DNA of 24,074 bases, taken from the IMG/VR virus record IMGVR_UViG_3300007363_000102, positions 1-24,074 of that record. One strand, 5' to 3'. Every line of letters starts with the position of its first letter. The first letter of the stretch is position 1. The stretch comes from a virus. A program made the translations under genes and the position numbers. Positions 1,686 through 3,115 of this stretch are shown here, one piece after another. Below the pieces are notes generated by a model. The model saw only the letters and a program-made list of their open reading frames with translations. It was not told the origin of the DNA and did not search any database.

Positions 1686-1831
1686 CAGATTGAAGCGTGA
1701 TGTGGTGGCACGGTTGCACAATTGGTGCATCGCCTCTTCAGTGGCTACTTGTTTGAATAGCGTTTTCTAGAGCGCATGATATACATCAAGGTGTGTTAGA
1801 GGTCTATCTGGTTCGACTCCAGACAATCTGA
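1686..1831 (+). ncRNA. tRNA/tmRNA-like structured RNA of 146 nt
   Basis: A perfect 7-bp acceptor-like stem closes the element: CAGATTG (1686-1692) with CAATCTG (1824-1830), followed by A1831 as possible discriminator. Immediately 5' of the right arm sits a textbook T arm: TCTGG (1807-1811), loop TTCGACT, CCAGA (1819-1823). A D-arm-like hairpin CGTG/CACG (1696-1699, 1709-1712) has a GG-containing 9-nt loop. Where a tRNA has an anticodon arm there are instead about 85 nt, closable by TGCAC (1715-1719) with GTGTG (1791-1795) and holding small hairpins. No CCA is encoded. It is too long for a tRNA and too short for a group I intron; the topology (acceptor, T arm, long insert) recalls the tRNA-like domain of tmRNA. 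Function unknown. Confidence 0.5.
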
Positions 1832-2272: not shown

Positions 2273-3115
2273 ATGGCAGTTAGCATTTCTAACGCTTTTG
2301 TAACCCTGTTTGATGCGGAAGTGAAGCAAGCATATCAAGCTGATGCTGTCTTGCGTAACACTGTCCGTCTTCGTACTGGCGTTACTGCGTCCTCTCACAA
2401 GTTCCCCAAAATTGGTGCTGGCGTTGCACAAGTCCGAGTTCCTCAGACTGATGTGACTCCTTTGAATGTGTCCTACTCACAGGCCACAGTCACACTGACA
2501 GACTACATTGCTGCTGAATACAGCGATATCTTCAACCAATCTAAAGTCAACTTTGACGAGCGTCAAGAGTTGGTTCAGGTGGTTGGTAAAGCCATCGGTC
2601 GTCGTTCTGACCAAATGATCATTGATGCTTTGGCTAACTCAGGCACTTCCCTGACTGTTGCTACTAGCGTTGGTGGTGCTGGTACTAACTTGAACATGGC
2701 TAAATTGCGTGACGCTGCTCGTTTGCTCAATGCTGCAAACGTCCCCGCAGAAGACCGCACCATCGTGATCCACGCTTCACAATTGTCCAGCTTGTTGTCT
2801 GAGACTGCTGTTACCAGCAGCGACTTCAACAGCGTCAAGGCTTTGGTGCAAGGCGATATCACCAGCTTCATGGGCTTCAACTTCATCACTATTGGTGATC
2901 GTTCTGAAGGCGGTTTGGCTGGCGGTGGCTCAGGCTCAACTCGTGTTGTGTACGCATACCACAAGATGGCTGTCGGCATGGCTGAAAGCATGGCTATTCG
3001 TTCTGAAATCAACTACATCCCAGAGAAAACCTCTTGGTTGGTGTCTTCGATGTTCAGTGCTGGCGCTACAGCTATTGACGCTGGTGGCATTGTCGCAATC
3101 ACCTGCACTGAATAA
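2273..3115 (+). CDS. Major capsid protein
   Basis: A 280-residue coat protein, likely with the HK97 fold, forming the icosahedral shell around the scaffold. Support: position directly after the scaffold, strong TAGGAG ribosome site, its own promoter and leader, and sequence features of podophage coat proteins. These include an N-terminal arm (residues 1-30), a long helix region around DERQELVQVVGKAIGRRSDQ (residues ~97-117), a Gly/Ser-rich loop near residues 213-223, and a C-terminal beta-rich segment. Codon use is smooth and rich in GCT/GGT, as expected for a highly expressed gene. At 280 residues it is shorter than T7 gp10A (about 345). No cleavage motif or protease gene is visible. Followed after 11 bases by the decoration-like gene. 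Confidence 0.88.
   Translation: MAVSISNAFVTLFDAEVKQAYQADAVLRNTVRLRTGVTASSHKFPKIGAGVAQVRVPQTDVTPLNVSYSQATVTLTDYIAAEYSDIFNQSKVNFDERQELVQVVGKAIGRRSDQMIIDALANSGTSLTVATSVGGAGTNLNMAKLRDAARLLNAANVPAEDRTIVIHASQLSSLLSETAVTSSDFNSVKALVQGDITSFMGFNFITIGDRSEGGLAGGGSGSTRVVYAYHKMAVGMAESMAIRSEINYIPEKTSWLVSSMFSAGATAIDAGGIVAITCTE

Follow-up and report, generated by a model that had tools for sequence, protein, structure and literature searches.

An exchangeable tRNA-like RNA domain between two structured RNAs upstream of a phage capsid gene

Results

Genes and flanking structured RNAs

The stretch of DNA analysed here (the window; 24,074 nucleotides) is a 24-kb linear IMG/VR virus record, which its head and tail genes identify as a tailed phage. 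Its major capsid protein gene (2273-3115, + strand; PHROG 3437, E 1e-57) scores 62.5% to the capsid of Methylophilales phage MEP301, the nearest isolate by this protein. Approximately 800 non-coding bases separate the end of the head-assembly (scaffold) protein gene (1476) from the start of the capsid gene (2273), and hold, all on the + strand, RNA1 (1560-1663), a tRNA-like RNA domain of 167 nt (1675-1841) and RNA2 (1849-2092, the end position being approximate). A sigma-70-like promoter, TTGACA-16-TATACT (1526-1553, + strand), overlaps the terminator of the scaffold gene (1517-1537). Within 1517-1553 the -35 box TTGACA is situated in the loop and stem of this terminator and TATACT follows 16 bases on; the overlap of terminator and -35 box recurs in several relatives.

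The setting was compared across 80 capsid relatives and contigs sharing the first 19 bases of RNA2. RNA1 follows closely upon a -10 box in 62 of 75 copies and ends in a terminator-like stem with a T run. The loop of its first hairpin (1566-1572) pairs with 1630-1636 to form a pseudoknot. An exact 7-nt partner of this loop is present in 64 of 65 distinct sequences, compared to five when control loops were taken from other sequences, and 22 different 7-mers are involved. The pseudoknot is well supported, since RNA1 was defined independently of the loop complementarity.

RNA2 is approximately 245 nt long, starts with the 19-mer CCGTCAGGGCGCGTTAGCT, displays many helices that covary among 19 sequences and ends near CACCCTTGGGGAAGCTATG. 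The 19-mer is present in at least 119 IMG/VR contigs, and an exact match is absent from 84,980 species genomes of bacteria and archaea. RNA1 and RNA2 are uncatalogued structured phage RNAs, neither of which matches an Rfam family. The genes downstream of the pair vary between phages, which gives it the appearance of a mobile leader.

Several variants of this arrangement were observed. The genes preceded by RNA1 and RNA2 include a queuosine-transferase-like reading frame (named by eye) in loci L117 and L090. L106 (2105-2190) and L113 carry a partial tandem duplication of the RNA2 5' part, with two GTCAGGGCGCGT motifs 71 bases apart. Other RNA types likewise follow RNA1, with CCGTACTCCAGACGATAC replacing the 19-mer (L005, L006, L008, L010, L056, L062) or with a ACTCGCAG..GCGGCACGTCGGTGG start (L025, L052).

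The slot between RNA1 and RNA2 and exchange of its insert

The tRNA-like domain is located at the joint between RNA1 and RNA2. Most RNA1-RNA2 loci have nothing in this slot, and in most such insert-free copies RNA2 starts 14-22 nt past RNA1, while a minority carry a stem-closed domain. The tRNA-like element occupies the slot in four loci, and unrelated stem-closed domains do so in L014, L020, L043, L115, L120/L121 and L190. A TTCGAGT in L014 was considered as a T loop and discarded, as no stem was found by eye.

Besides the window, the domain is present in three IMG/VR contigs: L083 (the same contig as L015), L084 and L196. When 2.9 million viral contigs were scanned with one pattern for the 5' scaffold and another for the 3' scaffold, each pattern returned the identical three contigs; the patterns were exact, so that more diverged copies could have escaped them. 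L196 represents another type of phage locus; its insert shares 95% identity with that of the window, compared to 61-67% for RNA1 and 50-56% for RNA2. Likewise, the insert is 99% identical between the window and L084, with RNA1 at 62-64%. Insert identity far above that of the flanks indicates that the domain spreads as a unit, and its borders can then only sensibly be read as functional borders or as recombination points.

Architecture of the domain

The domain is arranged like a class II tRNA: closing stem, AAG, D-like arm, second arm, long arm, T arm and closing stem follow one another in this order. The closing stem is formed by a 5' strand GACTGTTTTTTCAGATTG (1675-1692) and a 3' strand CAATCTGAAAAAGCAGTC (1824-1841), which pair over 18 unbroken base pairs including one U-G pair. 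It contains the perfect 7-bp acceptor-like stem (CAGATTG, 1686-1692, with CAATCTG, 1824-1830) that had been noticed in a first, sequence-only reading of the window, plus 11 outer pairs, and no CCA follows it. At 12 bp from the elbow, the stem passes into a weak tract of A/U pairs alone (TTTTTT/AAAAA).

The same reading had placed the borders of a 146-nt fold at 1686 and 1831, and had not anticipated an interchangeable insert flanked by two structured RNAs. These borders are too narrow. The unit at 1675-1841 has a folding z of -3.96, with none of 200 shuffles as good, while 1686-1831 alone reaches a z of only -0.74, no better than shuffles, and we conclude that the narrower borders cut through a helix.

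The D-like arm CGTG-ATGTGGTGG-CACG (1696-1712) has an invariant stem and, in all copies, a GG in its loop; variation is confined to the bases just before this GG, where L083 lacks one base. The second arm, TGCAC-AATTG-GTGCA (1715-1729), occupies the anticodon-arm position. Its stem is likewise invariant and a single loop base varies between A, G and T (AATTG/AGTTG/ATTTG); read as a 7-nt loop, it has A at position 33. This is the hairpin previously described as D-like; the hairpin itself stands, but its position is that of an anticodon arm and the more D-like arm lies nearer to the acceptor. The long variable arm (72 nt, 1732-1803) is closed by GCCTCT (1732-1737) and AGAGGT (1798-1803), a stem with a compensatory change from C-G to U-A. 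It replaces an earlier suggestion that TGCAC/GTGTG closes an insert of approximately 85 nt, which we abandon, as TGCAC can pair locally with GTGCA in 4/4 copies. The interior of the long arm is 41/60 identical in L083, with 9 gaps, compared to 58/62 and 41/44 in the flanking scaffold.

The T arm TCTGG-TTCGACT-CCAGA (1807-1823) is present just as first described, with an invariant stem joined directly to the 7-bp stem. In its loop, no copy departs from the tRNA consensus at a fixed position, and position 59 (C/A/T) alone differs. Changes in the domain thus fall where a tRNA tolerates them, at T-loop position 59 and in the D-loop just before GG. The combination was said to be improbable by chance, and this is borne out. 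Both strands were searched for a TTCRANY loop on a 5-bp stem that directly abuts a perfect 7-bp stem, within a span of at most 200 nt; this arrangement occurs once in the window and in none of 400 dinucleotide shuffles. Among related loci totalling 1.46 Mb, the only matches are the window, two close copies and one place in L157, which is tRNA-sized and lies apart from the two tRNAs called there by ARAGORN.

Covariation and fold energy

All 38 proposed pairs are standard in 4/4 copies and none is broken, whereas 40-47% remain paired when the partners are slid by 1-3 columns. Compensatory changes are observed in two pairs, from A-U to G-C in the closing stem (L083) and from C-G to U-A in the long-arm stem, and a further A-U pair of the closing stem becomes G-U in L083. 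A within-pair shuffle control matched the observed pattern in 30 of 500 cases, which reflects that there are only four sequences and that two of them, the window and L084, are nearly identical. Compensatory change, proposed at the outset as a check on the acceptor and T stems, is thus present in the former as well as in the long-arm stem, while the invariant T stem is uninformative. A conserved tRNA-like secondary structure with compensatory changes, by which viral tRNA-like structures are recognised, is found here in few independent sequences, and we regard the covariation, resting on few events, as supporting but not conclusive.

The cloverleaf lies 1.0 (window), 2.3 (L083), 3.7 (L084) and 0.2 kcal/mol (L196) above the minimum free energy. 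The minimum-energy folds of the window and L083 pair the D-like arm otherwise, which counts against the cloverleaf.

Comparison with tRNA, tmRNA and catalogued RNAs

The first impression that the fold matches no standard tRNA agrees with our searches and extends to tmRNA. ARAGORN finds neither in the window, L083, L084 or L196, and Rfam yields no family at gathering or permissive thresholds for the window, the element, L196 and eight further RNA2 or insert loci. In particular, the tRNA model RF00005 gives no score on the element even at E 10, Rfam recognises no tRNA in L084 or L196 either, and the best permissive matches (toxic sRNA, asX2) are confined to the terminator at 1517-1543. The GOLLD and ROOL covariance models likewise have no match at the loci scanned.

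The domain nevertheless has a genuine tRNA-like fold, with a TTCRANY-looped T arm on a 7-bp acceptor and a D arm with a GG loop. It lacks U8, U33, the anticodon-loop pattern and an encoded CCA, and its acceptor end is not free but continues into the 11-bp helix. It is not a charged or decoding tRNA. A split or inserted tRNA, as had been considered, is rejected because the insert occupies the variable-arm position and not the anticodon loop; moreover, the nearest anticodon-like loop is without U33, CCA is absent and the end is buried in the 18-bp stem. The suggestion of a tRNA mimic for an mRNA 3' end likewise finds no support, as the domain lies upstream of another conserved RNA and of the capsid gene.

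A second cloverleaf in the slot

The inserts of L043 (2477-2600) and L115 (3140-3260) belong to a separate and very widespread phage RNA, here called clover RNA, of which further copies lie in L324 (6985-7130) and in phage HK620 (L397, 1201-1315), in the latter between qut and the late terminator. It consists of a closing stem, a hairpin GCGC-AGGCTGAT-GCGC, a variable region (26-162 nt) and, directly joined to the stem, a hairpin GCCGG-AGATCAGCA-CCGGC. Over six bases, one loop is the exact reverse complement of the other (GCTGAT/ATCAGC), and where loop 1 has A for G, loop 2 has T for C (2/2 distinct copies). Judged from this complementarity, the loops can kiss where the D and T loops of a tRNA meet.

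Clover RNA is present in 168 phage records and in 1036 of 5426 E. coli genomes, with no annotated feature among the E. coli matches listed. It has no Rfam family in the loci scanned, and its strings, like the core of the RNA2 19-mer, are absent from open-access papers. A consensus tRNA T arm is found in 5 of 78 distinct clover RNA variable regions, where 0.013 are expected from shuffles. The regions concerned are those of L385 (3953-4050, + strand), L282, L297, L312 and L359; in L385, a tRNA-like D arm and a T arm are present with no anticodon arm between them. Clover RNA also lies twice in or beside phage tRNA clusters, in L400 (1277-2134) and L399 (1001-1711), in the orders Asn-Thr-[RNA]-Ser and before Ser-Arg-Met. 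The acceptance of both clover RNA and the tRNA-like domain by one slot suggests that both are self-contained and tRNA-shaped.

Discussion

A conserved tRNA-like fold, present in some loci, absent from most and moving between phages as a unit, is on balance best interpreted as an optional and exchangeable RNA domain in the shape of a class II tRNA, with a tRNA-like contact role; we hold this reading to be somewhat more probable than its negation. The D-like and T loops would form an elbow as in tRNA and thereby a rigid tRNA-shaped scaffold. Such a scaffold might dock the transcript on a factor that recognises tRNA elbows, or might compete with tRNA for such a factor, and the fast-evolving long arm would be the part that is presented. 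Decoy, docking and processing are alike compatible with the sequence. The domain is probably transcribed as one RNA with RNA1 and RNA2, downstream of the one phage promoter, though the terminator-like T run between promoter and domain counts against co-transcription with RNA1. With its promoter, covarying pseudoknot and terminator-like end, RNA1 makes the passage of transcripts through that end directly testable.

Bacterial RNase P measures a T arm flush on an acceptor stem. A different reading is accordingly that RNase P cuts at approximately 1685/1686, at the stacked T arm and acceptor, and so separates RNA1 from RNA2. The flush T arm, the position of the element exactly between the two RNAs and the weak TTTTTT/AAAAA tract starting 12 bp from the elbow would all suit such a cut. 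However, the 5' leader is paired with the 3' trailer in the 18-bp stem, which is normally a hindrance to RNase P, and CCA is lacking. Most RNA1-RNA2 loci are, moreover, without the element, so that the separation of RNA1 and RNA2 cannot depend on it, and we consider processing of this kind improbable.

Slightly less probable still is that the domain is an unrelated multibranch RNA whose T-arm likeness is convergent, merely a structural arm of a larger RNA with no tRNA-like function. Other inserts of the slot do share the plan of a closed stem and are without a tRNA T loop; yet the T loop of the domain equals the tRNA consensus at all fixed positions and varies only at 59, which speaks against this reading. 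The decay of a phage tRNA gene after insertion into its variable region could explain the fully canonical T arm, and in L100 and L157 RNA1 is indeed closely preceded by phage tRNA genes. Decay would be expected to leave scattered changes, whereas all 38 pairs hold in four phages and changes are restricted to permitted loop positions; the stem is 11 bp longer than an acceptor and the Rfam tRNA model gives no score at E 10, and we regard this origin as very unlikely. Least credible is a MITE-like DNA element whose 18-bp terminal inverted repeats merely resemble an acceptor stem, since, although an inverted repeat forms the border and the element moved between phages as a unit, no target-site duplication was seen, all copies found are in the same slot, the interior hairpins and the T arm are conserved and one stem shows a compensatory change.

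The contact-bearing tRNA-shaped domain that we prefer might be one instance of a broader class. Tailed phages may carry exchangeable, elbow-closed cloverleaf RNAs, with a long closing stem, hairpins at the D and T positions in loop-loop contact and a fast-changing payload replacing the anticodon or the variable arm. The window would represent the tRNA-type elbow and the clover RNA of L043 and L115 an elbow of Watson-Crick kissing (GCTGAT/ATCAGC), and both would be tRNA-shaped decoys or scaffolds, e.g., against tRNA-cutting host defences. We put this generalisation forward tentatively and think it rather unlikely as it stands.

Among known RNAs, class II tRNAs (Leu/Ser/Tyr type) share with the domain the order of arms, the canonical T loop and the GG in the D or D-like loop, but the domain differs by its 72-nt variable arm, its 18-bp acceptor, the lack of U33, U8 and CCA and the lack of an ARAGORN or Rfam call. 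The tmRNA likewise keeps T arm and acceptor and has a long insert in place of the anticodon region, whereas the domain has no ARAGORN tmRNA call, Rfam match or CCA. A tRNA-like fold has also been reported for the yjdF riboswitch (PMC9142559), which resembles the domain in bearing a tRNA-like shape within a bacterial regulatory RNA, but no riboswitch model of Rfam matches the domain. The ornate GOLLD RNA of phages and prophages, an Rfam family, has a variable linker that sometimes holds tRNAs (PMC12286853). Like the locus described here, it combines, in a large structured RNA of phages, a conserved portion with a variable one able to hold a tRNA or tRNA-like domain; in contrast, RNA2 comprises approximately 245 nt without a GOLLD match and its neighbouring domain is tRNA-like rather than a tRNA. 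Proximity to tRNA clusters, as noted for clover RNA, is likewise reported for GOLLD and ROOL. The host module of RNA1 and RNA2 is an uncatalogued structured RNA of more than 100 phage contigs, and the exchangeable domain suggests a modular assembly of phage RNAs from interchangeable parts.

Most known cases of viral tRNA mimicry come from RNA viruses. Plant RNA viruses in particular possess tRNA-like structures, viral RNAs mimicking tRNA (reviewed in PMC5723415). These are 3'-terminal in RNA genomes, whereas the domain described here is internal, belongs to a DNA phage and lies upstream of another RNA. A conserved, exchangeable tRNA-shaped domain in the RNA of a dsDNA phage would extend viral tRNA mimicry beyond the RNA viruses.
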